This document shows, in pieces, positions 29,498 through 49,476 of a DNA stretch of 64,000 nucleotides. Each line of letters begins with the position of its first letter. Position 1 is the first letter of the stretch. The position numbers and the translations under genes are program-made. A model generated the notes under the pieces. It made no database searches and was not told the origin of the DNA. It saw nothing but the letters and a program-made list of their open reading frames with translations. Origin of the DNA: Gammaproteobacteria bacterium (GTDB lineage Bacteria > Pseudomonadota > Gammaproteobacteria > Nevskiales > Nevskiaceae); NCBI GenBank assembly GCA_026398815.1, contig JAPLSA010000024.1, positions 62,001 to 126,000 of the forward strand, given 5' to 3'.

Positions 29498-30199
29498 CTA
29501 GGTCGACGCCGCCTCGGTAGTGCGCAGCATCGCGCCGCGCGCATCGTGGAGCATGTGTAGGGTGATCTTGCGCACCTCGCTCTTGCTCTGGGTGATATGC
29601 GAGCGCAGCAGGATCAAGGCCTCGGTCGCCTTGCGCCGCATGATCAGCCGCAGGATCTTGGCGTGCTCGTCATAGGTCGCGGCGATCCGGTTTTCCTTGA
29701 GAAAATCGAGCCGGCGGATGATGCGGATCTTCTCGGTGAGCTCCTGGTGCACCCGCTGCATCTCGCGATTGCCGGCGGCTTCGACCAGCGCGCAATGGAA
29801 GGCTTCGTCGAGCCCGGCCATCTTGCGCGGATCGCTTTCGCGGCTGTCCACCGGCACCAGCCACGCGGCCTTCAGTGCGGCCAGCGGCAGCTCGTCTTCC
29901 AAGGCGCACAGCTTCTCGACGGCATGCGACTCGATCAGGATGCGCAGGTCGTAGAGTTCATCGAAGCGCACGAAGTCGAATGGCGCCACGCTCCAGCCGC
30001 TGCGGAAGCCGACCTCCAGATAGCCTTCGCGGCGCAGGCGGTACAGCGCATCGCGGATCGGCGTGCGCGACACGCCGAGGCGCGCGGCCAGTTCGGTCTC
30101 GGTGAAACGGTCGCCCGGCAGCAGATGGAAATCGAAGATTTCCGCCTTCACCCGCAGGTAGATCTGTTCACCCAGCGGGTTGGCCGGCTGCTGCGCCAT
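29498..30199 (-). CDS. GntR-family (FadR/FCD-type) transcriptional regulator
   Basis: A 233-residue regulator. The N-terminal winged helix-turn-helix (about 10-75) includes FTETELAARLGVSRTPIRDALYRLRREGYL. The C-terminal part is all-helical and looks like an FCD effector domain, with histidines near 130 and 175-195 that could hold a metal ion. It is the last gene of the atzF-biuH-atzH-gntR series (66 bases after the AtzH-like gene), so it is likely the local regulator responding to a ureide or carboxylate intermediate. FadR-type GntR proteins usually bind short GT...AC palindromes; the TTGTATACAA-type sites at 33304, 22043 and 25366 fit this. ATG at 30199. Confidence 0.9.
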   Translation of the reverse strand: MAQQPANPLGEQIYLRVKAEIFDFHLLPGDRFTETELAARLGVSRTPIRDALYRLRREGYLEVGFRSGWSVAPFDFVRFDELYDLRILIESHAVEKLCALEDELPLAALKAAWLVPVDSRESDPRKMAGLDEAFHCALVEAAGNREMQRVHQELTEKIRIIRRLDFLKENRIAATYDEHAKILRLIMRRKATEALILLRSHITQSKSEVRKITLHMLHDARGAMLRTTEAAST

Positions 30200-30740: not shown

Positions 30741-31424
30741 CTAGGACAGCGCGGCCAGCAAGGCCTCCGAGCTCGCCACCGCACCGAACACCCCGCCCTG
30801 CATCTTGACCATCTTCAGCGCCGCCAGATGATTGCCGTGATCGGTGGCGGCGCAGCAGTCCTCGACCAGCAGGCATTCGAAGCCGCGGTCATTGCCTTCA
30901 CGCATCGTCGTGTGCACGCAGACGTCGGTGGTGATGCCGGTCAGCACCAGATGCGTGATGCCCCGGGTGCGCAGGATCAGTTCGAGGTCGGTGGCGCAGA
31001 AGCTGCCCTTGCCCGGCTTGTCGAGCACGATCTCGCCGTCGATCGGGTACAGCTCCGGAATGATGTCCCAGCCCGGCTCGCCGCGAACCAGGATCTTGCC
31101 GCAGGGGCCGGGATCGCCGATGCCGGCGCCGATCTGGCGCGAGCGCCAGCGCTTGTTGGCCGGCAGGTCGGACAGGTCCGGCCGGTGGCCTTCGCGGGTG
31201 TGGATGATGGTGAAGCCCAGCTCCCGCATCCGGCCCAGCAGGCGCCGGATCGGCTCGATCGGCGCGCGGGTCAGCGCGATGTCGTAGCCCATGGTGTCGA
31301 CATAGCCGCCGACGCCGCAGAAATCGGTCTGCATGTCGATGATGATCAGCGCCGTGCGGGCCGGCGTGAAGCCGCCGTCGAACGGCCAGGCATAGGGTTC
31401 GGCGGCAACGGTCGGGAAAGCCAT
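30741..31424 (-). CDS. biuH: Biuret amidohydrolase
   Basis: A 227-residue cysteine hydrolase of the isochorismatase fold that converts biuret to allophanate and ammonia. The triad is Asp30 in [10 protein letters not shown], the lysine in LDKPGKGSF and the cysteine in [15 protein letters not shown]. The stretches [34 protein letters not shown] and [14 protein letters not shown] closely resemble the Rhizobium leguminosarum BiuH, whose gene also lies with allophanate hydrolase. It starts 25 bases after the atzF stop and is cotranscribed with it, so its product allophanate is passed to AtzF. A second, diverged paralogue is at 20248-20946. Confidence 0.88.
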
Positions 31425-31449: not shown

Positions 31450-33285
31450 TCAGGCAGGCCGGTTCGCGGCCAGGTAGTGCCGCCAGCCGCCGTGGTGGGT
31501 GATATCGACCGCGCCGGCCACGGCGATCGGCTCGCAGATGAAACCTTTAACGGTGCGGCCGTCGGCCAGTTCGAGCGTGCCGATACCGAGCGGCGCGCCG
31601 ACCTGGGCCATCAGCCGGCCGAACTGCCGCTGCGGCATTTCCCAGACCTCGACCTCGATCGCCGCGCCCTGCCCCGCCACCCGGACCAGTCCCGGCTTGG
31701 CCGGCGTGGTGTTGGCGAGCGCATACAGCCGGTACTGCGCAGCGGTCTGCGTCCGCGCGGTGCAGCGCGCACCGCATTCGATCAGTTGCCAGTTCAGCGG
31801 CTGGCCTTCTAGATGGGCGCCGACCACGGCCACGGCGATCGTCGGCTCGTTGAACGGCAGCGGCAGCGCCGCCAGGCCGGACGCCGCCTCGGTGCCGGCG
31901 GACGACAGCAGGGGCTGCAGGCGCGTCGCCAGCGCGGCCAGCCGGTGATCGCTGCCGGCCGGGCCGATCAGCGTGATGCCGGACGGCAGGCCATCGCCGC
32001 GCGGCAGACCGGGAATCGCGAGCGCGGCAAGGTCGAGCAGGTTGACGAAGTTCGTGTACCAGCCCAGTTCGCTATTACGGGCCACCGGCTCGGCCTGCAC
32101 CTCGGCGATCCGCGGATGGCAGGGCGCGGTCGGCACCAGCAGCACGTCGATCCGCTCGAACAGCCGTGCCGCGTGGGCGCGATAGCCACGCATCCGGTCT
32201 TCGGCACGGAACAGGTCTTCGGCGCTGAACGGCGGTGCGGCGGCGATCACCGCGCGCACCGTCGGATCGATCGCATCCGGCTGCGTCGCAAGCATCTCGC
32301 CGACCGCGATCCGGCGCTCGGCGATCCACGGACCGGCGTACAGCAGTTCCGCTGCGGCGGTCAGCGGCGACAGATCGACCGCCGCGAACGCGAACGCCGG
32401 TTCGCGGCGCAGCGCCTCGACCGTCGCGCCGTAGGCCGTCTCGGCCAGCGGGTCGCCGAAGAACACCGGTTCGGCCGCCAGGCCGATCCGCGCGGTGCGC
32501 GCCAGCGGCGCCAGCATCGGCACGGCCCGCGAGCGGCTGTCCTCGGCATCGACGCCGGCAATCACCGCCAGCACCGACCAGGCATCGGCGACGCTGCCGG
32601 CGAAGATCGATACGCAGTCCAGGCTGCGGCAGGCCGGCACCACGCCGCGTGTCGACACCAGCCCGAGGCTCGGCTTCAGGCCGACGATGCCGTTGAAGCC
32701 GGCCGGCACGCGGCCGGAGCCGGCGGTGTCGGTGCCCAGCGCGAACACCGCCAGATCGAGCGCCACGGCCACCGCCGAACCGGAACTCGAGCCGCCGGAC
32801 AGGTAGTCCGGATCGATCGCATTGCGCACCACGCCGTACGGCGAGCGGGTGCCGACCAGGCCGGTCGCGAACTGGTCGAGATTGGTCTTGCCCAGATACA
32901 GCGCGCCGGCCGCCAGCAGCCGTTCGACCGCCGGCGCCGACCGCTCCGGCCGATAGGCGAAGGCCGGACAGGCGGCCGTGGTCGGCTGGCCAGCCACGTC
33001 GATGTTGTCCTTGACCGCGAACGGCAGGCCGAACAGCGGCAGCCGATCGAGCAGCGCCGGGCCTTCACGCGCCAGCAGCGCATCGCAGGCCTGCGCCTGC
33101 GCCAGCAGCACGGGGTCCGGCGGCTGCGAGATCCAGACCTCGGGACGATCGACGCGGTCGCGCGCAGCCAGCAGCCGGCGCAGCAGGGCGCTGGGCGTCA
33201 AGGCGCCTTGGCGCATCGCGGCGTGCAGGTCAGCCACGCGCAGCGGAATCGGAGTGTCGGGTCTGGAAACCGCGTCGGGTGCCAC
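31450..33285 (-). CDS. atzF: Allophanate hydrolase
   Basis: Hydrolyses allophanate to two ammonia and two CO2. The N-terminal amidase-signature domain (about 1-440) carries the Ser-cisSer-Lys triad: Lys92 in FAVKDNID, the serines of SGGSSSGSA (about 166-168) and Ser190 in DTAGSGRV. The C-terminal domain (about 450-611) is the allophanate hydrolase C-domain ([13 protein letters not shown] to [10 protein letters not shown]). The GTG at 33285 gives 611 residues and puts the triad within one or two positions of that described for Pseudomonas AtzF (Lys91, Ser165, Ser189). An ATG at 33342 would add 19 residues and place the TTGTATACAA palindrome inside the gene. First gene of atzF-biuH-atzH-gntR. 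It is not fused to urea carboxylase and no urea carboxylase is present, so biuret rather than urea should be the allophanate source. Confidence 0.92.
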
Positions 33286-33303
33286 GGGTGGCTCGCTCTG
33301 TTT

Positions 33304-33313
33304 TTGTATACAA
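33304..33313. promoter_or_regulatory. TTGTATACAA palindrome, candidate GntR operator of the atzF operon
   Basis: A perfect 10-base palindrome 19 bases upstream of the atzF GTG, in the divergent region shared with the NCS1-kinase gene. The form suits FadR-type GntR proteins. Near-identical sites are at 22043-22052 and 25366-25375. Confidence 0.55.
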
Positions 33314-33433
33314 GTAAGCGTACATGGCCTCGCAAGCGACATGCCAGAAACCGCCGGCCCGGCCTGCGCGGCGGGCCCGGTGGCCGCGCGGCAGGCAGTC
33401 TGCGGCAGCGCTGCGCCGGGCTGCGGCAGGCGC

Positions 33434-33449
33434 TACGTCATCTGACGTA
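33434..33449. promoter_or_regulatory. TACGTCA-TC-TGACGTA palindrome before the sensor kinase
   Basis: A perfect inverted repeat with 7-base arms and a 2-base spacer, 48 bases before the ATG of the NCS1-kinase gene. Thirteen contiguous bases of its reverse complement recur at 52867-52879 upstream of ureG. It could be a binding site for the LuxR-type response regulator encoded next to the kinase (autoregulation). Confidence 0.5.
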
Positions 33450-33496
33450 CCCGCCAGCGCCGCCCGGGGCAGGCTTCTTGCGCGGTGGATCGGGCC

Positions 33497-36400
33497 ATGA
33501 GCGCCAAGCCCGCCACCGTCAGCACCGCCCCGCAGGAGCAGCGGATCATCAAGATCCGCCGCGACTACAACACCTGGGTGGCCAACGAGACGCTGGAGGA
33601 CTACGCGCTGCGCTTCACCGCGCGTTCGGCCCGCAAGTGGAGCGCGTTCCGGGTCGCCAACACCGCGTTCGGGGCGATCTCGTTCCTGCTGCTGGAAGCG
33701 ATCGGCGGCTCGCTGCTGGTGTCCTACGGCTTCACCAATGCTGCCTGGGCGATTGCGGCAGTGAGCCTGGTGATCTTCCTGACCGGCCTGCCGATCGGCT
33801 GGTACGCCGCGCGCTACGGCGTCGACATGGATCTGCTGACGCGGGGTGCCGGCTTCGGCTACATCGGCTCGACGATCACTTCGCTGATCTACGCCTCGTT
33901 CACCTTTCTGTTCTTCGCGCTGGAAGCCACGATCATGGCGCTGGCGCTGAAGCTGTGCTTCGGCATTCCGCTGACGCCGGCCTACCTGATCTGCGCGCTG
34001 GTGGTGATTCCGCTGGTGACGCACGGCATCACCCTGATCTCCCGTTTGCAGGCCTGGACCCAGCCGCTGTGGCTGGTGCTGCTGGTCCTGCCCTTTCTCT
34101 TCGTGATCTGGAAAGCGCCGGAACTGGCGCGCGAGCTGCCCGATTTCGCAGCACCAGGCGGCAGCAAGGCGTTTTCGCTGATCCAGTTTGGTGCAGCCGC
34201 CAGCGTGCTGATGGCGATGGTCACCCAGATCGGCGAGCAGGTGGATTTCCTGCGCTTCCTGCCGGAACGCACGCAGGACAACCGCCGCCGCTGGCTGGCC
34301 TGCCTGATCGTCGCTGGCCCGGGCTGGATCGGCATGGGCGCGGTGCGGCTGCTGGGCGGCGCCTTCCTGGCCTTCATCGCGCTGCGTGCCGGCGTGCCGC
34401 AGGCCAACGCGCTGGAGCCGACCGAGATGTACCGCATCGGCTTCGGCTACGTGTTCGACTCGCCGGCCGTGGCACTCGGCGCGATGACCCTGCTGGTGGT
34501 GCTGAGCCAGCTGAAGATCAACGTCACCAATGCCTATGCCGGCTCGCTGGCCTGGTCGAACTTCTTCGCCCGCGTCACCCACAGCCATCCCGGCCGCGTG
34601 GTCTGGGTGGTGTTCAACGTGGCGATCGCGCTGATCCTGATGCAGCTCGGCGTGTTCAAGGCGCTGGAGCAGGTGCTCGGCCTTTATTCCAATGTCGCCA
34701 TCGCCTGGGTCGGCGCCATCGTTGCCGATCTGGTCATCAACAAGCCGCTGGGCCTGTCGCCACCCGGCATCGAGTTCAAGCGCGCGCACCTGTACGACAT
34801 CAACCCGGTCGGCGTCGGCAGCATGGTGATCGCCTCGGCGCTGTCGATCACCGCATTCACCGGCGTGTTCGGGCCGCTGGCGCAGGCGTTCTCCTCGTTC
34901 ATCGCGCTGCTGGCCGCCTTCGTCTGCGCGCCGCTGATCGCCTACGCCACACGCGGCCGCTACTACCTGGCGCGGCAGCCGGATGCCGCGCTGAACGCCG
35001 CCGCCGAGCACCGCTGCGTGATCTGCGAAAAGGTCTACGAGCGCGAAGACATGGCGCTGTGCCCGGCCTACCGCGGCAACATCTGCTCGCTGTGCTGCTC
35101 GCTCGACGCCCGCTGCCACGATGCCTGCAAGCCCGGCGCCAGCCTGCGCGAGCAGATCAACGCCACGCTGAAGCGGTTGCTGCCGACACCGCTGGCGGCG
35201 CGGCTCGATTCGCGCCTCGGCCATTACCTGCTGCTGTTCGGCATCGTCTCCGGCGTGCTCGGCGCCGCGCTGGCGCTGATCTGGGTGCAGGAATCGTCGC
35301 TGCTGGTGGCCAGCGACGCGGCGCTGCAGGAAGCGCTGCAGGCCGGCTTCCTGAAGCTCTACGCGGTGCTGATCGTGATCGCCGCCGTGCTCTGCTGGTG
35401 GCTGGTGCTGAACGGCGAAAGCCGGCGCGTGGCGCAGGAAGAATCGAACCGCCAGACCTCGCTGCTGATGCGCGAGATCGAAGCGCACAAGAAGACCGAC
35501 ATCGAGCTGCAGGCCGCCAAGCGCGCGGCCGACCGCGCCAACCAGGCCAAGAGCCGCTATGTCACCGGCATCAGCCACGAGCTGCGCACGCCGCTGAACT
35601 CGATCCTCGGCTATGCCGAGATGCTGCAGCACGATCCCAGCATTCCGGTGGCCCGGCGCGATGCCGTCAACGTGATCCGCCGCAGCGGCGATCACCTGCT
35701 GTCGCTGGTCGACGGCCTGCTCGACATCGCCCGCATCGAAAGCGGCAAGCTGACCTTGGACATCGACGAGCTGCGCTTCCCGGAATTCCTCGCCCAGACG
35801 GTCGGTATGTTCCGGCTGCAGGCGCACAACAAGGGCATCACCTTCGTCTACGACGAGCAGGGCAAGGTGCCGGCCGTGGTGCGCGCCGACAAGAAGCGCC
35901 TCGGCCAGATCCTGATCAACATCGTCGGCAACGCGGTGAAGTTCACCGAAACTGGCGGCGTCAGTTTCCGGCTGCGCTGGCGCGGCGACATCGCCACCTT
36001 CGAAGTGCGCGACTCCGGCATCGGCATTCCGGCTGACGAGATCGACCGCATCTTCCAGCCGTTCGAGCGCGGCAGCCAGGTGGCCGCCAGCGGCGAGACC
36101 GGCACCGGCCTGGGCCTGACCATCGCCAAGATGCTGACCAGCCTGATGGGCGGCGAGATGACCGTCGACTCCACGCCTGGCGCCGGCAGCCGCTTCGAGA
36201 TCCGCCTGTTCCTGCCGGAAGTGCGCGAGCCGCGCGCGCCGCTGTCGGCCGCGCTGCCGGACATCAGCGGCTACGCCGGGCCGCGCCGGCGCCTGCTGGT
36301 GGTCGACAACGAAGCGGTCGACCGGCGCCTGCTGATCAACGTGCTGGAGCCGCTCGGCTTCGAGCTGAGCGAAGCCGCTTCCGGCATCGAAGCGCTGCGC

Positions 36401-36898
36401 CAGGTCGCCCATGTGCGTCCCGACCTCGTGCTGCTCGACATCGGCATGCCCGGCATCGACGGCTGGGAAACCGCCCGCCTGCTGCGCGCCAATGAAGCGC
36501 AGAACGGCCATCCGCACCTGCCGATCATCATCATCTCCGCCGATGCCTTCGAAGCCGGCCGCACCGCCGCCGCCGGCATCGCGCCGCGCGACTATCTGGT
36601 CAAGCCGGTCGGCGTTGCGCTGCTGCTCGACCGCATCCGCGACGCGCTCGGCCTGGTCTGGATCGCCGGCCCGGCAGCGACCGCGGCCGAGGCTGACGAC
36701 GAGGCCCTGCCCGATCACCTGGCGCAGTCGCTGCGCGAACTCGGCGCGCTCGGCCATGTGCGCGGCATCCTGAGCAAGCTCGACGAGATCGACCGCCTCG
36801 ACAGCCGCTACCACCGGCAGACCCGCAAGCTGCGCGCCTCGGTCAAGGCCTTCCAGCTCGCCGACTACCTGCGCGCGCTCGGCATGGAGGCCCGATGA
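33497..36898 (+). CDS. NCS1 permease fused to hybrid histidine kinase
   Basis: An 1133-residue membrane sensor. Residues 20-490 form an NCS1 (CodB/purine-cytosine permease-like) transporter with about 12 helices. A cysteine-rich linker follows (about 507-546: CVIC, an isolated CP, then ICSLCCSLDARCHDAC), then two further helices (about 575-640). The kinase core has the H-box ISHELRTPLN with His694, an N-box IVGNAVKF, and G-boxes DSGIGIP and GTGLGLTI. A receiver domain (about 930-1050) has Asp981 in VLLDIGMPG. By analogy with transporter-kinases CbrA and CrbS, substrate binding or transport likely sets kinase activity; the ligand is probably a nucleobase, ureide or urea-related compound. ATG 33497 was chosen over GTG 33485. 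It overlaps the response regulator by 4 bases. Confidence 0.9.
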   Translation: MSAKPATVSTAPQEQRIIKIRRDYNTWVANETLEDYALRFTARSARKWSAFRVANTAFGAISFLLLEAIGGSLLVSYGFTNAAWAIAAVSLVIFLTGLPIGWYAARYGVDMDLLTRGAGFGYIGSTITSLIYASFTFLFFALEATIMALALKLCFGIPLTPAYLICALVVIPLVTHGITLISRLQAWTQPLWLVLLVLPFLFVIWKAPELARELPDFAAPGGSKAFSLIQFGAAASVLMAMVTQIGEQVDFLRFLPERTQDNRRRWLACLIVAGPGWIGMGAVRLLGGAFLAFIALRAGVPQANALEPTEMYRIGFGYVFDSPAVALGAMTLLVVLSQLKINVTNAYAGSLAWSNFFARVTHSHPGRVVWVVFNVAIALILMQLGVFKALEQVLGLYSNVAIAWVGAIVADLVINKPLGLSPPGIEFKRAHLYDINPVGVGSMVIASALSITAFTGVFGPLAQAFSSFIALLAAFVCAPLIAYATRGRYYLARQPDAALNAAAEHRCVICEKVYEREDMALCPAYRGNICSLCCSLDARCHDACKPGASLREQINATLKRLLPTPLAARLDSRLGHYLLLFGIVSGVLGAALALIWVQESSLLVASDAALQEALQAGFLKLYAVLIVIAAVLCWWLVLNGESRRVAQEESNRQTSLLMREIEAHKKTDIELQAAKRAADRANQAKSRYVTGISHELRTPLNSILGYAEMLQHDPSIPVARRDAVNVIRRSGDHLLSLVDGLLDIARIESGKLTLDIDELRFPEFLAQTVGMFRLQAHNKGITFVYDEQGKVPAVVRADKKRLGQILINIVGNAVKFTETGGVSFRLRWRGDIATFEVRDSGIGIPADEIDRIFQPFERGSQVAASGETGTGLGLTIAKMLTSLMGGEMTVDSTPGAGSRFEIRLFLPEVREPRAPLSAALPDISGYAGPRRRLLVVDNEAVDRRLLINVLEPLGFELSEAASGIEALRQVAHVRPDLVLLDIGMPGIDGWETARLLRANEAQNGHPHLPIIIISADAFEAGRTAAAGIAPRDYLVKPVGVALLLDRIRDALGLVWIAGPAATAAEADDEALPDHLAQSLRELGALGHVRGILSKLDEIDRLDSRYHRQTRKLRASVKAFQLADYLRALGMEAR

Positions 36899-37794
36899 AC
36901 AGCCATCTGCCCGCCGCCGGCGCGACCATCCTGATCGTCGACGATGTCGCCGAGAACCTGGCCGTGGCGCACGACGCGCTGGACGCCGCCGGCTACACGG
37001 TGCGCGTCGCCACCAGCGGGCTGGCGGCACTGGAATCGGCACGCCGCCAGCCGCCGGACCTGATCCTGCTCGATGCGGTGATGCCGGGCCTCGACGGCTT
37101 CGAGACCTGCCGCCGGCTGAAGGCCGATCTGTCGACGCGGCCGATCCCGGTGGTGTTCATGACCGGGCTGACCGACAGCGAGCACGTGGTGCAGGGCTTT
37201 CAGGCCGGTGGCATCGACTACGTGACCAAGCCCATTCGCGCTACCGAAGTGATCGCCCGCATCGCCTCGCATGTCCGCAACGCGCGGCTGGTGTCGGATA
37301 CCCAGGCGGCGGCCGATGCCGCTGGCGATGCCATCGTCGCCATCGACGAGGCCGGCCGGCTGAGCTGGGCGACGCCGCTGGCGCAGACCTGGCTGGCGCC
37401 GCTGTGCGATGCCGGCCATCGGCTGCCGGCGCCGCTGCTGCGCTGGCTGGACTGCGGCGACGCCGGCTCGCCGAACTTCAGCCTGCATGCCGACGGCCAG
37501 CGGCTGAGCTTTGCCCGGCTCGGCCCGCGTCGCCTGCTGGTGCAGCGGATGGCCAGCGTGCCGGAGCCGGAAGTGCTGGCGCGGCTGCTGAACATCACCG
37601 CCCGCGAAGCCGACGTCCTGTACTGGATCGTGCTCGGCAAGACCAATCCGGAGATCGCCGGCGTGCTCGAAATGAGCCCGCGCACGGTCAACAAGCACCT
37701 CGAACACATCTTCACCAAGCTCGGTGTGGAGACGCGCACGGCAGCGGCAACCGTGGCGCTGAACCGCAGCCGGCTCGGCGTGCTGGCCAGCTGA
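36895..37794 (+). CDS. LuxR/NarL-type response regulator
   Basis: A 299-residue regulator: an N-terminal receiver (about 9-130) with acidic pocket VDD, phospho-acceptor Asp60 in LILLDAVMPG and the VTKP lysine near 112; a middle segment (about 135-230) with no clear family; and a C-terminal LuxR-type helix-turn-helix (about 230-295, ITAREADVLYWIVLGKTNPE then MSPRTVNKHLEHIFTKLGV). Its ATG overlaps the kinase stop (ATGA), so the pair is translationally coupled. The downstream porin-urt-ure genes and the inverted repeat at 33434 are its likely targets. It would act as a transcription activator of urea and ureide use. Confidence 0.92.
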   Translation: MNSHLPAAGATILIVDDVAENLAVAHDALDAAGYTVRVATSGLAALESARRQPPDLILLDAVMPGLDGFETCRRLKADLSTRPIPVVFMTGLTDSEHVVQGFQAGGIDYVTKPIRATEVIARIASHVRNARLVSDTQAAADAAGDAIVAIDEAGRLSWATPLAQTWLAPLCDAGHRLPAPLLRWLDCGDAGSPNFSLHADGQRLSFARLGPRRLLVQRMASVPEPEVLARLLNITAREADVLYWIVLGKTNPEIAGVLEMSPRTVNKHLEHIFTKLGVETRTAAATVALNRSRLGVLAS

Positions 37795-37967
37795 GGAATA
37801 CAGAAAACCAGCAAGCACCCACGCAAGCAAAAAGCGGAAACAACGGCGCATGGGAGCGCGCCGGAACAGCGGCAAACACCAGTGACGGGCTGCAAACACG
37901 CCGGGTCTCGACGACCCGGCGCGGGCGGAGCCATGCCTTCGATCCATCCATTGACCAGGGGAACAAC

Positions 37968-39068
37968 ATGAACGACTGCAACACCGGGATGCTCGGCACA
38001 TCGCCCAGCAAGCTGATCACCGTCGCCGCCATCGGTGCGCTGGCCTGCGCGGCGGCCGCGGTGCCGGCGACCAGCCACGCCGCTGACCTGAAGCTGCCGC
38101 CGATCTCGATCGGTGCCGGCCTGCGCACGCAGTTCGAAAGCACCAATCCGAGCGGCGGCAGCAATACCGTCAACGACTTCAACGTCAACAACGCGCGCAT
38201 CTATCTGGGCGGCTCGGTGACCGAGAACATCAAGCTGATGTTCAACACCGACTACTCCTCGTCGTCCGACAACCTGCAGGTCATGGATGCCGTCGCCCGC
38301 TTCGAGTTCGGCGACACGCTGAACTTCTGGGCCGGCCGCTTCCTGCCGCCGTCGGACCGCGCCAACCTCTACGGCCCGTTCTACGCCAGCAACTGGAATG
38401 TCTACGAGGACGGCGTGCAGGACGGCTATCCGTTCTATGTCCAGGGCCGCCAGAACGGCGTCGCCTACTGGGGCCAGTTCGGCATCGCCAAGGTGTCGCT
38501 TGGCGTCTTCGATGCACCGTCCACGCAGGGCGAAGGCGAGGTCATCACCGCCGGCCGCGTGCAGCTGGATTTCTGGGATGCCGAAGCCGGCTACTACCTG
38601 AACGGCACCTACTACGGCGAGAAGGATCTACTGGCGGTCGGCATCGCCGGCCAGACCTCGGCCGGCAAGCACGCCTACACGCTCGACGCGCTGCTGGAAA
38701 AGAAGCTGCCGAACGGCGGCGTGGTGACCCTGGAAGCCGAAGCGGCGCGCTACGACCAGCTGGGTGGCTACGGCGGCTTCGATGGCAGCTACACCGACTC
38801 CAACGGCTGGTACGGCCTGGGCGCCTACCTGTTCCCGCAGAAGATCGGCATCGGCAAGGTGCAGCTGCTCGGCAAGTACGGCGCGGCGCGTTTCAACGAC
38901 ACCAGCGGCCTCGGCCCGGAATACGAGCAGACGACTCTGGAGTTCAACGTCAACTACCTGATCAAGGCTTTCGATGCCCGGATCAGCCTGTTCTACAAGG
39001 ACACCAAGCTCGACGCCGGCCTGCCCGACGCCACCCAGATCGGCGTCGGTCTGCAGGTGCAGATCTAG
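37968..39068 (+). CDS. Outer-membrane porin preceding the urea transporter
   Basis: A 366-residue barrel with a signal peptide (about 1-38, ending ATSHA). The mature part is rich in aromatic and Gly/Asp turns (FEFGDTLNFWAGRFLPPSD; YYLNGTYYGEKDLL) typical of Gram-negative porins. The ATG at 37968 has AGGGGA upstream and gives a proper signal peptide; the longer open frame before it overlaps the regulator gene and is not coding. It lies 54 bases before urtA and is presumably cotranscribed, so it would supply urea or ureides to the periplasm. A GC hairpin at 37899-37921 precedes it. Confidence 0.85.
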   Translation: MNDCNTGMLGTSPSKLITVAAIGALACAAAAVPATSHAADLKLPPISIGAGLRTQFESTNPSGGSNTVNDFNVNNARIYLGGSVTENIKLMFNTDYSSSSDNLQVMDAVARFEFGDTLNFWAGRFLPPSDRANLYGPFYASNWNVYEDGVQDGYPFYVQGRQNGVAYWGQFGIAKVSLGVFDAPSTQGEGEVITAGRVQLDFWDAEAGYYLNGTYYGEKDLLAVGIAGQTSAGKHAYTLDALLEKKLPNGGVVTLEAEAARYDQLGGYGGFDGSYTDSNGWYGLGAYLFPQKIGIGKVQLLGKYGAARFNDTSGLGPEYEQTTLEFNVNYLIKAFDARISLFYKDTKLDAGLPDATQIGVGLQVQI

Positions 39069-39122
39069 TCGCCGGCTGACTGTCCAGAATCCATTTCGAT
39101 CACCCAACACGAGGGAATCCCG

Positions 39123-40394
39123 ATGAAGATGAATCCGATGAAAACCGCGCTGCTGGCTGCGGCCGCCGCGCTGAGCTTCTCCACCCAGGCGGCTGATGAC
39201 ACCATCAAGGTCGGCGTGCTGCATTCGCTGTCCGGCACCATGGCGATCTCCGAAACCACGCTGAAGGACACGGTCCTGATGCTGATCGACGAGCAGAACA
39301 AGAAGGGCGGCGTGCTCGGCAAGAAGCTCGAGGCCGTGGTCGTCGATCCGGCGTCGAACTGGCCGCTGTTCGCCGAGAAGGCGTCCGAGCTGATCGACAA
39401 GAACAAGGTGTCGGTGGTGTTCGGCTGCTGGACCTCGGTGTCGCGCAAGTCGGTGCTGCCGGTGTTCGAGAAGTCCAATTCGCTGCTGTTCTACCCGGTG
39501 CAGTACGAGGGCGAGGAATCTTCGAAGAACGTCATCTACACCGGTGCCGCGCCGAACCAGCAGGCGATTCCGGCGGTGGACTACCTGATGAAGGATCTCA
39601 AGGTGAAGCGCTGGGTGCTGGAAGGCACCGACTACGTCTATCCGCGCACCACCAACAAGATCCTCGAGGCCTACCTGAAGGCCAAGGGCGTCAAAGCCGA
39701 AGACATCATCGTCAACTACACGCCGTTCGGTTTCAGCGACTGGCAGAGCGAAGTCTCCAAGATCAAGGCCTTCGGCTCGGCCGGCAAGAAGACGGCTGTT
39801 GTCTCCACGATCAACGGCGACGCCAATGTCCCGTTCTACAAGGAACTGGGCAACCAGAAGATCTCGGCGGAAGACATTCCGGTGGTCGCGTTCTCGGTCG
39901 GCGAAGAAGAGCTGTCGGGCATCGACACCAAGCCGCTGGTCGGCCATCTCGCCGCCTGGAACTACTTCGAGAGCGTCAAGAGCCCGGCCAACAGTGCGTT
40001 CATCAAGGCCTGGCACAGCTACATCAAGAACGACAAGCGCACCACCAACGATCCGATGGAAGCGACCTACATCGGCTTCAACCTGTGGGTGAAGGCGGTC
40101 GAGAAGGCCAAGACCACCGACACCGAAAAGGTCATCGAAACCCTGCCGGGCCTGGAAGTGCCGAACCTGACCGGCGGCACCGCCAAGCTGCTGCCGAACC
40201 ACCACATCACCAAGCCGGTGTACATCGGCGAGATCAAGGAAGACGGCCAGTTCGAGACTGTCTGGCAGACCAAGGGCGAAGTGCCGGGCGATGCCTGGTC
40301 GGACTTCCTCGACGGCTCCAAGGATCTGGAGTCCGACTGGGTGAAGCTGAAGTGCGGCAACTACAACACCAAGACCAAGAAGTGCTCGAACTGA
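39123..40394 (+). CDS. urtA: Urea ABC transporter substrate-binding protein
   Basis: A 423-residue periplasmic binding protein with a signal peptide (about 1-23) and the mature start DDTIKVGVLHSLSGTMAISE. GCWTSVSRKSVLPVFEKSNSLLFYP and YEGEESSKNVIYTGA are the conserved UrtA/AmiC-type pocket segments. First gene of a complete urtABCDE set. A strong hairpin follows at 40470-40509, which may keep its transcript more abundant than the membrane genes, as is common for binding proteins. Confidence 0.95.
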   Translation: MKMNPMKTALLAAAAALSFSTQAADDTIKVGVLHSLSGTMAISETTLKDTVLMLIDEQNKKGGVLGKKLEAVVVDPASNWPLFAEKASELIDKNKVSVVFGCWTSVSRKSVLPVFEKSNSLLFYPVQYEGEESSKNVIYTGAAPNQQAIPAVDYLMKDLKVKRWVLEGTDYVYPRTTNKILEAYLKAKGVKAEDIIVNYTPFGFSDWQSEVSKIKAFGSAGKKTAVVSTINGDANVPFYKELGNQKISAEDIPVVAFSVGEEELSGIDTKPLVGHLAAWNYFESVKSPANSAFIKAWHSYIKNDKRTTNDPMEATYIGFNLWVKAVEKAKTTDTEKVIETLPGLEVPNLTGGTAKLLPNHHITKPVYIGEIKEDGQFETVWQTKGEVPGDAWSDFLDGSKDLESDWVKLKCGNYNTKTKKCSN

Positions 40395-40551: not shown

Positions 40552-42249
40552 ATGATTCGATTCACGACCTCGCTGCGACGATGCTGGCTGGCCGCATGCC
40601 TTGCCGCGAGCCTGCCGCTGCTCGCACAGGAGCCGTCAGCCGCACCCGATCAGGCTGCGGCCGCCGTCGCGAGTGCCGAAGCGGCACCCGCTGTCCCCAC
40701 GGCTTTTCCCGATGTGCTGCGCGCGCTCGGCAGCGCGTCGCTGAGCGAGCGCGCCGCACTGCTCAATGCCCTGCTCGCCACCAAACACCCGAACACCGCC
40801 GCCGTGCTCAAGGCCTGGCTGGAGGATCACCTGCACGTTCGCGATGCCGACGGCGAGATGTTCATCACTGCCGAAAGCGACGCCGGCGACGCAAGTTCTT
40901 TTGCGCTGACCGATCCGGTGACCCTGGCCGCGTCCGGCCCGGAATCCGCTGACGGCTTCACCAAGGTCGGCTCCAACAATGCCTTGCGCAAGCTACTGCG
41001 CAGCGCCGTGGCCTCGTTCACGCTCGGCAGCCCGGACGCCGACGTGCGGCTCGGCGCGGTGCGGGAAATGCTGCGCGCGCCGGACGACGCCACGCTGGCG
41101 CTGCTGCGCGAACGGCGCGCCGCCGAAACCGATGCCGCCGTGCAGCGCGCGATCGACCTTGGCCTGGCCAGCGCCGATCTCGCCTCGGACAACGCCGATC
41201 TCCGGCTGGCCGCCGTCCAGGTGCTCAGTGGCTCGCTGGCCGGCGAAGCCATCGCCAAGCTTGAAGCGCTGCGCGATCCGGCCAACGAAACAGACGAGCG
41301 GGTCCGCGCCGCCGCCAGCCTGGCGATCTCCTCGATCAGCCTGAAGCGCTCGCTGTACTCCGGCATCGAGACGCTGTTCTTCGGTCTGAGCCTCGGCTCG
41401 GTGCTGGTGCTGGCGGCGATCGGCCTGGCCATCACCTTCGGCGTCATGGGCGTGATCAACATGGCGCATGGCGAGCTGATGATGATCGGCGCCTACACCG
41501 CCTACGTCGTGCAGCTGCTGCTGCCGAACCATCTGGCGGCGTCGATCCTGATCTCGATTCCGGCCGCCTTCGTGGTGTCCGGGCTGGTCGGCATCGCCAT
41601 CGAGCGCGGCGTGGTCAAGCACCTCTATGGCCGGCCGCTGGAAACGCTGCTGGCCACCTTCGGCATCAGCCTGATCCTGCAGCAGCTGGTGCGCTCGATC
41701 TTTTCGCCGCTGAATCGCTCGGTGGCCACACCCGAATTCATGAGCGGCCAGTGGGTGATCAACGATGCGCTGTCGCTGACCTGGAACCGGCTCTACATCG
41801 TGCTGTTCACCTTGCTGGTGTTCGCAGCGCTGCAGCTGATCCTGCGCCGCACCTCGCTCGGGTTGACCGTGCGCGCGGTGTCGCAGAACCGGGCGATGGC
41901 GCGCTCGATGGGCATCAACAGTGATCGCATCGCTGCGATCACCTTCGGCCTCGGCTCCGGCATCGCCGGCGTCGCCGGAGTGGCGCTGTCGCAGCTGACC
42001 AATGTCGGCCCGAATCTCGGCCAGAGCTACATCATCGATTCGTTCATGGTGGTGGTCTTCGGTGGCGTCGGAAACCTGTGGGGCACCTTGATCGGCGGCA
42101 TGACCCTGGGCGTCGCCGGCAAGCTGCTGGAGCCAGCGGTGGGTGCAGTGATGGCCAAGATCGCGATGCTGGTGTTCATCATCCTGTTCATCCAGCGCCG
42201 CAAGCAGGGCCTGTTCCCGCAGAAAGGCCGCGCGGCGGAGGGCCACTGA
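40552..42249 (+). CDS. urtB: Urea ABC transporter permease UrtB
   Basis: A 565-residue inner-membrane permease of the branched-chain amino acid (LivH) type. A signal-like N-terminus is followed by a soluble Ala/Asp-rich extension of about 250 residues with HEAT-like helical repeats, as is usual for UrtB; then the membrane part from about 270 with LAITFGVMGVINMAHGELMMIGAY and FGGVGNLWGTLIGGMTLG. Its stop overlaps the urtC start by one base (TGATG), so the two are translationally coupled. Confidence 0.95.
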   Translation: MIRFTTSLRRCWLAACLAASLPLLAQEPSAAPDQAAAAVASAEAAPAVPTAFPDVLRALGSASLSERAALLNALLATKHPNTAAVLKAWLEDHLHVRDADGEMFITAESDAGDASSFALTDPVTLAASGPESADGFTKVGSNNALRKLLRSAVASFTLGSPDADVRLGAVREMLRAPDDATLALLRERRAAETDAAVQRAIDLGLASADLASDNADLRLAAVQVLSGSLAGEAIAKLEALRDPANETDERVRAAASLAISSISLKRSLYSGIETLFFGLSLGSVLVLAAIGLAITFGVMGVINMAHGELMMIGAYTAYVVQLLLPNHLAASILISIPAAFVVSGLVGIAIERGVVKHLYGRPLETLLATFGISLILQQLVRSIFSPLNRSVATPEFMSGQWVINDALSLTWNRLYIVLFTLLVFAALQLILRRTSLGLTVRAVSQNRAMARSMGINSDRIAAITFGLGSGIAGVAGVALSQLTNVGPNLGQSYIIDSFMVVVFGGVGNLWGTLIGGMTLGVAGKLLEPAVGAVMAKIAMLVFIILFIQRRKQGLFPQKGRAAEGH

Positions 42250-43352
42250 TGAAAAACCAATCCCTGTTGCTGTCGGCGCTGAAGGCCGACCGTGGCGGCC
42301 AGGTGCTGCTCGGCCTGCTCGCCATCGCCGCGGTGGCCGTGCCGGTGCTGAACCTGGGGGTGCCGGAAGGCAGCCTGCTGCATCTGTCGACCTATACGGT
42401 GACCCTGTTCGGCAAGTACCTGTGCTACGCGCTGCTGGCGATCGCGGTCGATCTGGTCTGGGGCTATTGCGGAATTCTGAGCCTCGGCCACACGGCGTTC
42501 TTCGCGCTCGGCGGCTACGCGATCGGCATGTACCTGATGCGCCAGATCGGCCCGCGCGGCGTCTACGGCAACCCCATCCTGCCGGACTTCATGGTGTTCC
42601 TGAACTGGAAGGAGCTGCCGTGGTTCTGGGAAGGCATGAACCACTTCCCGCTGGCCGCGCTGATGGTGGTGCTGGTGCCGGGCCTGCTGGCGCTCGGGTT
42701 CGGCTGGCTGGCGTTCCGTTCGCGGGTCACCGGGGTGTATCTGTCGATCATGACCCAGGCGCTGACCTTCGCCCTGCTGCTGGCCTTCTTCCGCAACGAG
42801 ATGGGCTTCGGCGGCAACAACGGCCTGACCGATTTCAAGGAGCTGCTCGGCTTCGATCTGAAGACGCCGGGAATGAGGGTCGCGCTGTTCGTCACCACGG
42901 TGATCGCGCTGGCGGTCGGCTACATCGGCTGCCGCTACGTGATCGCATCCAGGCTCGGCAGAGTCGTGCAGGCGGTGCGCGACGCCGAAGGCCGCACCCG
43001 CTTCATCGGCTATCAGGTGGAGTCGTACAAGCTGTGGATCTGGGTGTTCTCGGCGATGCTGGCCGGCATCGCCGGGGCGCTGTACGTGCCGCAGGTCGGC
43101 ATCATCAACCCGGGCGAGTTCGCGCCGATCAACTCCATCGAAGTGGTCATCTGGGTCGCGGTCGGCGGGCGCGGCACCTTGTACGGCGCGGTGGCCGGCG
43201 CGGTGCTGGTCAACTACGCGAAGACCTGGTTCACCGCCGCGTTCCCGGAGATCTGGCTGTACGCGCTGGGCGCGCTGTTCGTGGTCGCCACACTGTTCCT
43301 GCCGAAGGGTGTCGTCGGTCTCATCCCTGCCCGTGGAGCCAAAGCCTCGTGA
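42249..43352 (+). CDS. urtC: Urea ABC transporter permease UrtC
   Basis: A 367-residue LivM-type permease. CYALLAIAVDLVWGYCGILS with LGHTAFFALGGYAIGMY is the family signature, and VGGRGTLYGAVAGAVLVNY lies near the C-terminus. The ATG at 42249 was selected because the upstream extension of the frame lies inside urtB and lacks homology. Its stop overlaps the GTG start of urtD by 4 bases. Confidence 0.95.
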   Translation: MKNQSLLLSALKADRGGQVLLGLLAIAAVAVPVLNLGVPEGSLLHLSTYTVTLFGKYLCYALLAIAVDLVWGYCGILSLGHTAFFALGGYAIGMYLMRQIGPRGVYGNPILPDFMVFLNWKELPWFWEGMNHFPLAALMVVLVPGLLALGFGWLAFRSRVTGVYLSIMTQALTFALLLAFFRNEMGFGGNNGLTDFKELLGFDLKTPGMRVALFVTTVIALAVGYIGCRYVIASRLGRVVQAVRDAEGRTRFIGYQVESYKLWIWVFSAMLAGIAGALYVPQVGIINPGEFAPINSIEVVIWVAVGGRGTLYGAVAGAVLVNYAKTWFTAAFPEIWLYALGALFVVATLFLPKGVVGLIPARGAKAS

Positions 43353-44182
43353 GCACTTCTCCCGCCACGACCGGCCCGGTCGGCCTGCGCACCAAACCCA
43401 CCGGCCGCCGGCGCAGCACCAATGCGCCAAGCCCGGATCTGTCCCACAACATCATCCTGTACGTCGAAGGCGTGACCAAGAGCTTCGACGGCTTCAAGGC
43501 GCTCAATGACCTGAGCATCTACATCGAGACCGGTGAATTGCGCTGCATCATCGGCCCCAATGGTGCTGGCAAGACCACGATGATGGATGTCATTACCGGC
43601 AAGACCCAGCCCGATACCGGCTCGGTCTGGTTCGGCCAGACCATCGACCTGCTCGGCATGAGCGAGCCGGAAATCGCCCAGGCCGGTATCGGCCGCAAGT
43701 TCCAGAAGCCGACCGTGTTCCCCGAGCACACGGTGTTCGAGAACCTCGAACTGGCGATGGCCTGCGACAAGTCGGTGTGGAAGATCCTGTTCGCGAAGCT
43801 GAGCCCGCAGCAGCGCGACCGCATCGACGAGGTGCTCGGCATCATCGGCCTGAAGGACCAGCGCGCAGCCCGTGCCGGCGCGTTGTCGCACGGCCAGAAG
43901 CAGTGGCTGGAGATCGGCATGCTGCTGATGCAGGACCCGCTGGTGCTGCTGGTCGACGAGCCGGTGGCCGGCATGACGCCGCAGGAAACCGAGCGCACTG
44001 CCGAACTGCTGGTCGGTCTGGCCGGCAAGCACTCGGTGGTGGTGGTCGAGCACGACATGAATTTCGTCCGCTCCATCGCCCGCAAGGTGACCGTGCTGCA
44101 CGAAGGCCATGTGCTGGCCGAAGGCTCGATGGACGAGGTGCAGAACGATCCGCAGGTCAAACGCGTGTATCTCGGCGAATAA
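43349..44182 (+). CDS. urtD: Urea ABC transporter ATP-binding protein UrtD
   Basis: A 277-residue LivG-type ATPase. Walker A is GPNGAGKTT; an ABC signature variant reads LSHGQKQWLEIGMLLMQ; Walker B is VLLVDEPVAGMT; the switch histidine is in VVEHDMNFV. The GTG start at 43349 overlaps urtC (GTGA). A Pro/Arg-rich N-terminal stretch of about 30 residues before the first strand is usual for UrtD. Confidence 0.94.
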   Translation: MSTSPATTGPVGLRTKPTGRRRSTNAPSPDLSHNIILYVEGVTKSFDGFKALNDLSIYIETGELRCIIGPNGAGKTTMMDVITGKTQPDTGSVWFGQTIDLLGMSEPEIAQAGIGRKFQKPTVFPEHTVFENLELAMACDKSVWKILFAKLSPQQRDRIDEVLGIIGLKDQRAARAGALSHGQKQWLEIGMLLMQDPLVLLVDEPVAGMTPQETERTAELLVGLAGKHSVVVVEHDMNFVRSIARKVTVLHEGHVLAEGSMDEVQNDPQVKRVYLGE

Positions 44183-44193
44183 GAGGCGCGACG

Positions 44194-44913
44194 ATGAGTG
44201 ATTCGATGGTGAAGATCAGCGGGCTCAACCAGTTCTACGGCGGCAGCCACACGCTGTGGGATCTCGATGTCGACGTGCCGCGCGGCGCTCGGCTATGCCT
44301 GATGGGCCGCAACGGCATGGGCAAGACCACCTTGCTGAAATGCCTGATGGGCCTGATCCCGACCGCCTCCGGCAGCATCACCTACGACGGCGGCCAGGAG
44401 CTGCGCGGGGTCGCCGCCGACAAGCGCGCCGGCTTGGGCATCGGCTATGTGCCGCAGGGCCGGGAGATCTTTTCGCAGCTCACGGTCGAGGAAAACCTGC
44501 GGGTCGGGCTGGAAGCGCGCGGCCTGAAATCGGCGAAAAAGAAGGAGCTGATGGACTACGTCCACAGCCTGTTTCCAGTGCTGAAGCAGATGAGCGCGCG
44601 GCGCGGCGGCGATCTGTCCGGCGGCCAGCAGCAACAGCTGGCGATCGGCCGGGCGCTGACCCTGGAGCCGAAGCTCTTGATCCTCGACGAGCCCTGCGAA
44701 GGCATCCAGCCGAACATCGTCGCCGACATCGGCGACCTGATCCTCAGGCTCAACCAGGATCTCGGCCTGACCGTGCTGCTGGTCGAACAGAAGCTGCCGT
44801 TCGCCCGCCGCGTGGCCAGCGACTTCGTGATCCTCGACAAGGGCCGCGCCGTCGCCCGTGGCCCGATCGCCGGGCTGACCGATGATCTGGTCAAGAAGCA
44901 CCTGACGGTCTGA
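44194..44913 (+). CDS. urtE: Urea ABC transporter ATP-binding protein UrtE
   Basis: A 239-residue LivF-type ATPase. Walker A reads GRNGMGKTT, the signature LSGGQQQQLAIGRAL, Walker B LLILDEPCEGIQP, followed by LLVEQKLPFARRVA. ATG 44194 with AAGAGG upstream, 11 bases after the urtD stop. Ends 54 bases before ureD. Confidence 0.95.
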   Translation: MSDSMVKISGLNQFYGGSHTLWDLDVDVPRGARLCLMGRNGMGKTTLLKCLMGLIPTASGSITYDGGQELRGVAADKRAGLGIGYVPQGREIFSQLTVEENLRVGLEARGLKSAKKKELMDYVHSLFPVLKQMSARRGGDLSGGQQQQLAIGRALTLEPKLLILDEPCEGIQPNIVADIGDLILRLNQDLGLTVLLVEQKLPFARRVASDFVILDKGRAVARGPIAGLTDDLVKKHLTV

Positions 44914-44967: not shown

Positions 44968-45837
44968 ATGGAAGCACTCGATCCGAATGTACTGCCGCAC
45001 ACCGTCCCCAGCCGAGGCTGGCAGGCCCGGCTGGACCTCGGCTTCGCCGGCGACCCGGCGCTGCCGGCGGCCCGCACGCGGCTGGTGCGGCGCAGCCACG
45101 TCGGGCCGCTGCGGGTGCAGCGGCCGTTCTATCCGGATGGGCCGGTCTGCAACGTCTACATCGTCCACCCGCCGGGCGGTGTCGTCGGCGGCGACCGGCT
45201 GGACCTGCGGATCAGCGCCGACCATGCCGCCCAGGTGCTGCTCACCACGCCGGCCGCCGGCAAGTTCTATCGCAGTGCCGGGCCGGAGGCGCGGCAGCGC
45301 GTCGAAATACGGCTCCAGGACGGCGCTACGCTGGAATGGCTGCAGCAGGAAACCATCCACTACCCCGGCGCGCTGGTGCGCCAGCAGACCCTCGTGCGGC
45401 TCGATGCCAGCGCCCGCTTCATCGGCTGGGATCTGGCCGCCTACGGCCTGCCGGCCCGTGGCGAGCGCTACGACAGCGGCCGCGTCGTGCAGGGCTTCGA
45501 GCTGTGGCGCGGCGAGCAGCCGCTGCTGCTCGACCAGCTGCTGCTGCAGGGCGGCGGCGCGGCGTTCGACAGCCGCTGGGGACTCGACGGCGCGACCGCG
45601 CTCGGCACGTTTGTCGCATGCCCGGCCACGGCCGACGATCTCGGCGCGGCGCGGGATGCCGTGGCGCCGCTGGCCGGCGTCAGCGCCGGGCTGAGCCTGG
45701 TCGACGGCGTGCTGATCGGCCGCGTGCTGGCGCGCCAGACCGATGCCGCGATGCGGGCGCTGCTGGCATTGTGGCGGGCGCTGCGGCCGCGCCTGCTCGG
45801 CCGGCCGGCGGTGCTGCCGCGCATCTGGGCGACGTGA
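44968..45837 (+). CDS. ureD: Urease accessory protein UreD
   Basis: A 289-residue cytoplasmic chaperone that binds apo-urease and recruits UreF and UreG. Typical segments are [40 protein letters not shown] and the [11 protein letters not shown] stretch. First of the urease genes, directly following urtE. Confidence 0.93.
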
Positions 45838-45895
45838 ACGTCGCCGCCGCTGCCGGCCGGCCTCACTGCAACCGCTCACCCGAGACAGGAACACC

Positions 45896-46198
45896 ATGGA
45901 ACTGAGTCCCCGCGAGAAGGACAAGCTGCTGATCTTCACCGCCGGCCTGCTGGCCGAGCGGCGCAAGGCGCGCGGCGTGAAACTGAACTACCCGGAAACG
46001 ATCGCCTACATCTCCGCCGCGATCCTCGAAGGCGCGCGCGACGGCCGCTCGGTCGCCGAGCTGATGAGCTACGGCACCACCCTGCTGAGTCGCGACGAGG
46101 TCATGGACGGCATCCCCGAAATGATCGCCGACGTGCAGGTCGAAGCCACTTTTCCGGACGGCACCAAGCTGGTCACCGTCCACAACCCGATTCCCTGA
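45896..46198 (+). CDS. ureA: Urease subunit gamma
   Basis: A 100-residue structural subunit of normal length. [41 protein letters not shown] and [19 protein letters not shown] are the family hallmarks. ATG 45896 follows CAGGAAC. Separated from ureB by the ureJ-type gene. Confidence 0.97.
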
Positions 46199-46217
46199 AC
46201 CGCCCCCGGAGCCCGCG

Positions 46218-46793
46218 ATGACCGCCTCCCGCCTGACTGCCGTGATCCTTGCGCTCGGCCTGCTGCCGAGCCTGGCCCTTGCCCACCCGGGGCATGAGAC
46301 GCCGGGCTTCGTCGCCGGCCTGCTGCATCCGCTGACCGGGCTCGACCACCTGCTGGCGATCCTCGCGGTCGGCGGCTGGGCGGCCGCCACCCGGCGGGCC
46401 GGCGGCTGGCGGGTACCGGCCTCGTTCGCGACCGGCATGCTGGCCGGCGCCCTGCTCGGCCTGGCCGGACTGCGGCTGCCGGCGGCCGAGCTGCTGATCG
46501 CGCTGTCGCTGCTGGTGTTCGGCAGCCTGATGATGCTGCGCCGGACGCTGGCACTGGTGCCGGCCTGCGCACTGGCCGGCGGCCTCGCGCTGTTTCACGG
46601 CTACGCCCACGGCGCCGAGCTGCCGGCATCCGCCGATACCGTCGCCTGGCTGTCCGGCATGGTCACCGCCACCGTGCTGCTGCACCTGGCCGGCGCAGCG
46701 CTGGCGCTGGCCAGCCGCCGCCATCCGCTCGGGCTGCGCCTGGCCGGTGCCGCCGTGGCGGCGGCCGGCGGCGGCCTGCTGCTCGGACTCTGA
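46218..46793 (+). CDS. ureJ: HupE/UreJ-family nickel permease or metallochaperone
   Basis: A 191-residue membrane protein with a signal-like N-terminus and about six hydrophobic segments. [24 protein letters not shown] is the HupE/UreJ nickel-binding signature, and [11 protein letters not shown] a second His-containing motif. It probably moves nickel across the inner membrane for urease activation. It sits between ureA and ureB (gaps 19 and 7 bases), a placement seen for ureJ in several proteobacteria. Confidence 0.88.
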
Positions 46794-46800
46794 GGCCGCC

Positions 46801-47105
46801 ATGATTCCCGGCGAACTGCTGCCGCTCGACGGCCCGGACATCGAACTCAACGCCGGCCGCGACACCGTGCAGCTGCGCGTGGCCAATGCCGGCGACCGGC
46901 CGATCCAGGTCGGCTCGCACTACCACTTCTTCGAAACCAACGATGCGCTGCACTTCGACCGGGCCGCTGCGCGCGGCTTCCGGCTGAACATCCCGGCCGG
47001 CACCGCCGTGCGCTTCGAGCCGGGCCAGGCGCGCGACATCGAACTGGTCGCCTATGCCGGCGACCGCATCGTCCACGGCTTCCAGGGCAAGGTGGAGGGC
47101 CCGCT

Positions 47106-47109
<4 letters not shown>
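46801..47109 (+). CDS. ureB: Urease subunit beta
   Basis: A 102-residue structural subunit. [34 protein letters not shown] and [17 protein letters not shown] are diagnostic. The stop overlaps the GTG start of ureC by 4 bases, coupling their translation. Confidence 0.97.
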
Positions 47110-48806
<1,697 letters not shown>

Positions 48807-48829
48807 TCTCTCCGCTCAAAAGCTAACGA

Positions 48830-49465: not shown

Positions 49466-49476
49466 GGGCGGCGCCG

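Follow-up and report, generated by a model that had tools for sequence, protein, structure and literature searches.

An NCS1-fold domain joined to a hybrid histidine kinase: a probable detector of urea and short amides in Pseudomonadota

Introduction

Sensor histidine kinases that carry a transporter domain have been described in the SLC5/STAC group, exemplified by CrbS/CrbR, RpuS/RpuR and CbrA (PMC5715377, PMC9100948, PMC13022988). Here we analyze a gene pair, encoding a hybrid sensor histidine kinase and a LuxR-type response regulator, in a 64,000-nucleotide stretch of DNA from a bacterium of the Nevskiaceae (contig JAPLSA010000024.1, positions 62,001–126,000; hereafter, the window). Judging from sequence comparisons, the pair probably acts as a nutrient detector that switches on genes for the uptake and breakdown of urea or of small amides (such as formamide), beside which its relatives recur.

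As in the SLC5/STAC kinases, a transporter domain of the LeuT fold is joined to a histidine kinase; like the window kinase, CrbS and RpuS are hybrids that have LuxR-type partner regulators. Furthermore, in CbrA a lysine fills the Na2 site, and the window kinase has Lys340 at a Na2 ligand position. However, the transporter domain of the window kinase is of the NCS1 rather than the SLC5 type, and it is followed by an eight-cysteine module and a predicted hairpin, apparently in place of the four-helix STAC domain. The neighborhoods also differ, since the family of the window kinase is found beside urea or amide genes, whereas acetate, pyruvate or histidine genes accompany the SLC5/STAC kinases.

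With the transporters Mhp1 (hydantoin) and CodB (cytosine) the window domain has the fold and the signature positions in common, but it lies below Pfam detection and is fused to a kinase. On the regulatory side, UreR of enteric urease clusters is a one-component, cytoplasmic, AraC-type regulator that activates urease genes in response to urea. Urea-responsive activation of urease is where the likeness to the window pair would lie; the one-component, cytoplasmic, AraC-type design is where the two differ.

A pair resembling ours in size, order and neighborhood was listed in 2009 for Dechloromonas aromatica, as a 1131-aa 'histidine kinase' and a 308-aa 'Che-Y like receiver' preceding UrtA (PMC2907700, Table 4). 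That table covers a nitrogen-fixation cluster, and its entries give neither a domain analysis nor a function for the two proteins (PMC2907700). Among the papers ranked highest for broad queries of the open-licence PMC literature, there was no account of an NCS1-type kinase or of a membrane sensor kinase for urea or amides. In the literature so surveyed, transporter-kinases of the SLC5/STAC type are already known, and the NCS1 type appears to be new.

Architecture and conservation of the kinase–regulator pair

The kinase gene (33497–36898, + strand) is a single open frame encoding 1133 aa, with an alternative GTG start 12 bases upstream of 33497. An earlier reading of this DNA from its letters alone (the sequence-only reading) had proposed one continuous transporter–cysteine–kinase–receiver protein, overlapped by the gene of a LuxR-type regulator, and both proposals were borne out. 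Pfam recognized HisKA (residues 684–750) and HATPase_c (798–906), which together form the core at 35546–36214, and a receiver domain (934–1048; 36296–36640). The histidine of the HELRTP motif, His694, and the receiver residue Asp981, both correctly numbered in that reading, are invariant in 119/119 aligned relatives. The regulator gene (36895–37794, + strand) overlaps the kinase gene by 4 nt and encodes a receiver, a linker and a GerE/LuxR-type helix-turn-helix (HTH), the two domains again matched by Pfam. All the parts of a hybrid kinase (HisKA, HATPase_c and receiver) with an adjacent receiver–GerE regulator were found. In the first 680 residues of the kinase nothing scored above the Pfam cut-off; no PAS domain was matched in the protein, nor was any transporter domain, the SLC5 (SSF) domain included.

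The best 80 of at least 572 related stretches in the genome collection match the kinase over nearly its whole length, with 55–94% identity in the best segment, so its architecture is not a chance assembly; weaker members of this set may have only the kinase parts in common. The closest named relatives among these 80, at 89–94% identity, come from metagenome-assembled genomes of Lysobacteraceae (L020) and Nevskia (L001 and L002). Median identities by part are 0.65 for the NCS1 domain, 0.65 for the cysteine module, 0.59 for the kinase, 0.47 for the receiver and 0.36 for the hairpin, the first two being thus the best conserved. The HTH of the regulator is conserved as well, and its closeness to that of the window is the same in relatives from urea and from amide loci (median 0.61; n = 52 and 16 of 90 rows).

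Two alignments of 119 rows were used, one of the N-terminal domain and one of the full-length protein, which differ by one row. The former omits L002, whose kinase match stops at residue 352, and L179, which lies on a 4.8-kb contig; in the latter, L179 replaces L180. For the matrix scan described below, L002 was restored as a urea locus.

Gene context of the relatives

The common theme of the homologues is urea or short-chain amides. Among the 80 loci selected for their similarity, urt- or ure-type neighbors (E 1e-15) appear in the fetched flanks of 57, and 10 of these 57 are of the formamidase/amidase type. A looser threshold (E 1e-12) gives 59/80, the additional L055 and L076 having had no match at 1e-15; L025 was scored as having none despite canonical urtB–E, its urtA lying beyond the fetched stretch.

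A second view came from 299 genomes drawn across the phylum, in which the cysteine module was found in 38 (that of the window included), at 42 places. The 30 places read for architecture, again including the window, all have the order NCS1–cysteine module–kinase–receiver. Forty were fetched with their neighbors, and the window makes the 41st; the 42nd, a second copy in genome G091, lies beside a formamidase gene and shows a kinase match, with no receiver or regulator match and no operator. Of the 40 fetched loci, 38 are urea- or amide-type (10 and 28, respectively), and the other two, L174 and L179, sit at contig ends.

The loci are of two kinds, one with canonical urt and/or ure genes, and one with a diverged Urt-like ABC operon (UrtA 36–41% identical) together with an FmdA_AmdA formamidase gene, commonly joined by one for a carbon-nitrogen hydrolase. 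Both types occur, as single copies, in three genomes (G246, G158 and G225), their N-terminal domains being 55–57% identical. By type, the alignment rows are 56 urea, 38 amide and 25 unassigned. In the tree, amide rows are absent from a clade of 73 rows (SH-aLRT, a likelihood-ratio branch support, of 94), of which 49 are urea and 24 unassigned; the seven remaining urea rows are interspersed among the amide ones. The urea type would have about three independent origins, a tentative count given that the tree was built quickly and that some of its branches are long.

The sequence-only reading had named urt, ure and atzF as the neighbors to look for beside homologues. The survey found urt/ure or amide genes at most loci (57/80 and 38/40), but AtzF in just 3/120 loci and BiuH in 2/120. 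Biuret genes as a core function of the family were ruled out by these counts, which make them a lineage-specific or local addition.

In six Methylophilaceae loci (L038, L041, L042, L043, L045 and L050), the neighbors of the kinase include both a urease and an ABC transporter of the amide-like kind; these loci were counted as urea loci, and they suggest that urea and amide uptake overlap there. L180 and L247 are diverged kinase copies beside formamidase genes, with no matched regulator and, in L247, no receiver either, possibly a simpler or older form of the system.

A palindrome that accompanies the kinase

In 500-bp regions preceding the gene of UrtA, or of its amide-type relative, the palindrome TACG-N8-CGTA occurs in 32/37 amide and 20/35 urea regions; in the same count of spaced tetramers, the commonest pair in a shuffled set (a single Markov resample) reached 14 and 12, respectively. 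A position weight matrix (PWM) was cross-trained, such that the amide-trained matrix was used to find urea sites and the reverse, and it detected sites in 42/56 urea, 35/38 amide and 1/25 unassigned loci. Within the 2.43 Mb scanned, 93 of 106 matches lie at most 600 bp upstream of kinase, urtA, porin, atzF, fmd or ure genes.

We also considered 23 genomes with no urt or ure gene in the stretch fetched around the kinase, where 'unlinked' means outside that stretch and urtA may be just 14–25 kb from the kinase in some of them. UrtA was located first and a narrower pattern searched for afterward. UrtA was present in 19 of the 23, and 16 of these 19 have a site before UrtA or before the gene of an amide-type substrate-binding protein: in 12 genomes the end of the site is 98–154 bp from the UrtA match, in 3 it lies on the same contig but farther upstream, at about 1.3 kb, and in the remaining one it precedes the amide-type gene. 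Eight further sites in the unlinked genomes lie elsewhere. No site was found in the 4 genomes that lack UrtA.

The 2 kb upstream of canonical urtA contained the operator in 0/40 kinase-free genomes (sampled from 55 with canonical urtA) and in 0/18 genomes with solely amide-type kinases (from 19; G111 is amide-type by tree position alone), whereas it was present in 2/2 genomes having a urea-type kinase with urtA elsewhere. The best negative scored 10.6 against a threshold of 12, kept the same throughout. The diverged copies L180 and L247, which have no matched regulator, lack the operator too. Given this distribution, the palindrome is very likely the binding site of the regulator, a parallel to CrbR, which acts via an inverted repeat in its target promoters (PMC5715377).

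In the window, the predicted operator TACGTCATCTGACGTA lies at 33434–33449, between the divergent atzF and kinase genes. It is the sole exact site in the window and one of 5 in the 4.3-Mb genome, whose contig C8 includes the window. With a matrix built without Nevskiaceae sequence it has the best score, 19.7 against 6.2 for the next, a value reached in 0/100 shuffles. L001, L002, L003 and L020 likewise retain a site ahead of the kinase gene.

The NCS1-fold domain

The sequence-only reading had assigned the N-terminal part of the kinase to NCS1. A direct search with PF02133 failed: neither the window protein nor any of 45 relatives gave a match, even with the threshold relaxed to E 10, and the window's genome gave none at E 0.001. 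Nevertheless, comparison by hhalign of the 45 relatives with 21 PF02133 proteins gave a probability of 99.4 and an E of 1.7e-21 over 414 columns (residues 30–474). An AlphaFold2 (AF2) model of 680 residues, built from the 45-relative alignment, had a mean pLDDT of 80.7 and a pTM of 0.79; when it was compared with the PDB by Foldseek, the top five structures were all Mhp1 or CodB (TM-score by target length, 0.69–0.76), with other LeuT-fold families (Nramp, Dur3 and APC) and SLC5-type structures ranked below. On these two lines, profile–profile comparison and predicted fold, the domain (residues ~45–485; 33629–34951, + strand) is assigned to NCS1; the homology emerges from them alone, so the earlier assignment stands by profile and fold and not by PF02133. 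Sequence searches of PDB chains with the N-terminal domain returned nothing meaningful (9 chance-level matches with the single sequence, none with the profile).

The roles of Mhp1 Trp117, Gln121, Gly219, Trp220 and Asn318 are taken from PMC4195764. In a second profile alignment, with Mhp1 included, the NCS1 signature residues are kept at Mhp1 positions 95, 229, 232, 314, 380 and 408; at 232 the kinase has Arg, as do 21/22 NCS1 proteins, Mhp1 itself having Lys. Relative to Mhp1, Gln121 is replaced by Glu143 and Ser312 by Lys340, and Asn318 is retained as Asn345, each in 119/119 rows, while Thr313 becomes Ile341 in 114/119. Kinase positions 340 and 341 correspond to the Na+ ligands Ser312 and Thr313 of Mhp1. 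With Lys and Ile at these Na2 ligand positions, Na+ coupling is predicted to be lost, and the domain is probably Na+-independent, either proton-linked or a non-transporting receptor. The invariant lysine is suggestive of a parallel with CbrA, whose Na2 site is occupied by Lys196 and whose transport is described as proton-dependent (PMC13022988).

The position of Mhp1 Trp117 (kinase residue 139) is occupied by Phe (91 rows) or Leu (28 rows) in the 119-row alignment. Phe is found in 38/38 amide rows, and Leu in 24/56 urea rows (two distant lineages included) and 4/25 unassigned rows. This is the sole position with a urea/amide trend, and it might be a determinant of ligand size.

The cysteine module and hairpin

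The cluster of eight cysteines, previously placed at about residues 507–546, proved to consist of Cys507, 510, 522, 530, 533, 534, 540 and 544, each of them unchanged in 119/119 rows, within a module of residues ~500–548 (34994–35140, + strand). An AF2 model of the module alone (60 sequences) had a pLDDT of 78.5 and showed short strands and helices. Most of the first 20 structures found with it by Foldseek are zinc modules of the FYVE, RING or PHD type, with a best E of just 0.31. These matches faintly favor a two-zinc treble-clef or cross-brace (FYVE/RING-like) module over an Fe-S centre, zinc and Fe-S being the two options that had been offered, between which the eight cysteines by themselves do not discriminate; structural zinc seems likely. 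Matches of the module profile to C2H2 fingers in the PDB covered only short CxxC stretches and were given no weight.

In the full model, region 500–548 is predicted as short strands and a helix carrying the eight cysteines, and in the model it looks unlike a four-helix bundle. Helices follow at 573–603 and 608–679, a predicted hairpin leading into a coiled coil (residues ~572–640; 35210–35416, + strand) for which a membrane placement is inferred.

Other genes in the window

The island genes named in the sequence-only reading are all present. Divergent from the kinase are the genes for the allophanate hydrolase AtzF (31450–33342, − strand) and the biuret amidohydrolase BiuH (30741–31424, − strand). 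A GntR/FCD regulator gene (29498–30199, − strand) adjoins BiuH and is kept in L001 and L002; it may provide separate control of the biuret genes. Downstream of the response regulator, on the + strand, are a porin-like outer-membrane protein (37968–39068, start estimated; a weak Porin_O_P match just under the cut-off), the urea-binding protein UrtA (39123–40394), UrtB, UrtC, UrtD and UrtE (40552–44913) and the urease cluster ureD, ureA, ureJ, ureB, ureC, ureE, ureF (44968–50157).

UrtB (40552–42249) has an N-terminal extension of ~270 residues ahead of its permease domain. Immediately 3' of ureF lies a patatin-like phospholipase gene (50269–51531), and ureG (52157–52738, − strand) is on the opposite strand, separated from the other urease genes.

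Proposed mechanism and alternatives

Drawing on what was computed (architecture, NCS1 homology, residue conservation, gene association, the operator and the way it co-occurs with the kinase), we think it likely that the pair is a transceptor kinase for urea or short amides with a regulator controlling its uptake operon. The NCS1-fold domain would bind urea or, in the sister group, amides of the formamide/acetamide type, in the equivalent of the hydantoin pocket of Mhp1, where the invariant Glu143 and Asn345 would stand in for Gln121 and Asn318. A ligand-induced change of state could then reach His694 by way of the cysteine module on the cytoplasmic side, followed by the membrane hairpin and the coiled coil. 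Phosphate would be transferred to the LuxR-type regulator, and the receiver within the kinase would serve as a second acceptor. The phosphorylated regulator would bind the palindrome ATACGTCAnnTGACGTAT and activate, rather than repress, an operon for urea (urt/ure) or for amides (Urt-like ABC, formamidase, amidase), in many cases along with its own gene; in the window, its target would be the atzF/kinase divergent promoter.

Several observations weigh against this scheme. Of the similarity-chosen loci, 23/80 have no urt/ure neighbor in the fetched flanks, and related genomes are not independent samples. The PWM found no site near the tested genes in 14/56 urea loci (L016, L021, L033, L042, L050, L066, L069, L074, L075, L163, L165, L175, L177 and L178), although L163 and L165 have the operator at an unlinked urtA, and in L075 the pattern matches exactly but scores below the threshold; nor was a site found in 3/19 unlinked genomes with UrtA. 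In the window no operator precedes porin-urt, so that urt–ure control would need read-through from the kinase promoter, and a consensus scan of 33200–39300 detected no sigma-70-like site. Control of the island, as first proposed, is supported by the operator ahead of the kinase and atzF, none lying before porin-urt. At the level of residues, the Mhp1 equivalences depend on a profile alignment of ~17% identity, and the alignment contains no residues that change in parallel across the independent urea lineages; since no specificity residue tracks the urea/amide split, the ligand may be one molecule shared by both types.

Finally, the transporter domain of CbrA is reported as non-essential for signal perception (PMC9100948). 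This also lends weight to a different account, in which the NCS1 domain is merely a membrane platform and the input is cytoplasmic (nitrogen status, ammonium, or metal/redox state at the cysteine module, whose eight cysteines are invariant), scavenging being turned on when nitrogen is short. We regard this as unlikely. The NCS1 domain is, with the cysteine module, the most conserved part of the protein, Glu143 and Asn345 being invariant in 119/119 rows, and the operator count of 0/18 at canonical urtA in genomes with solely amide-type kinases agrees better with a signal specific to a compound than with a general one for nitrogen.

Still less probable is a sensor of ureides or nucleobases (allantoin, hydantoin or uracil) that induces the urea genes as a downstream part of the pathway. 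The NCS1 homology speaks for it, and the NCS1 ligands hydantoin, allantoin, uracil and cytosine all have a ureido-like group. However, the recurrent neighbors are urt, ure or formamidase/amidase genes, and no purine or hydantoin breakdown gene was recognized by eye in eight representatives of the recurrent neighbor clusters, no direct search having been made; the change of Trp117 to Phe or Leu also suits a smaller ligand. Of the ligands suggested from sequence alone (ureides, nucleobases or urea), the urea theme therefore holds, with short amides as an unforeseen addition, and nothing in the neighborhoods, which were not searched directly for such genes, pointed to nucleobases or ureides. A nickel or zinc sensor tuning urease maturation to metal supply through the cysteine-rich module, as linkage to urease (a nickel enzyme) might suggest, is very improbable and was dropped, because the same eight cysteines are kept in amide-type kinases (38/119 rows), whose neighbors are formamidase and often carbon-nitrogen hydrolase, with no urease in the fetched stretches.

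Implications

Returning to the urea/amide transceptor, the evidence is evenly balanced as to whether the family forms a second, independently evolved class of transceptor-kinases, with an NCS1 urea/amide receptor made Na+-independent by a lysine, coupled through a zinc module, Pseudomonadota-wide and using one operator code throughout. The proposed ligands, urea and short amides, are widespread sources of nitrogen. As a candidate operator accompanies the family, its regulon would be predictable, and as urea-type and amide-type copies are paired in single genomes, its ligand specificity would be testable. The family also offers a second transporter fold in which to study how transporters switch kinases.

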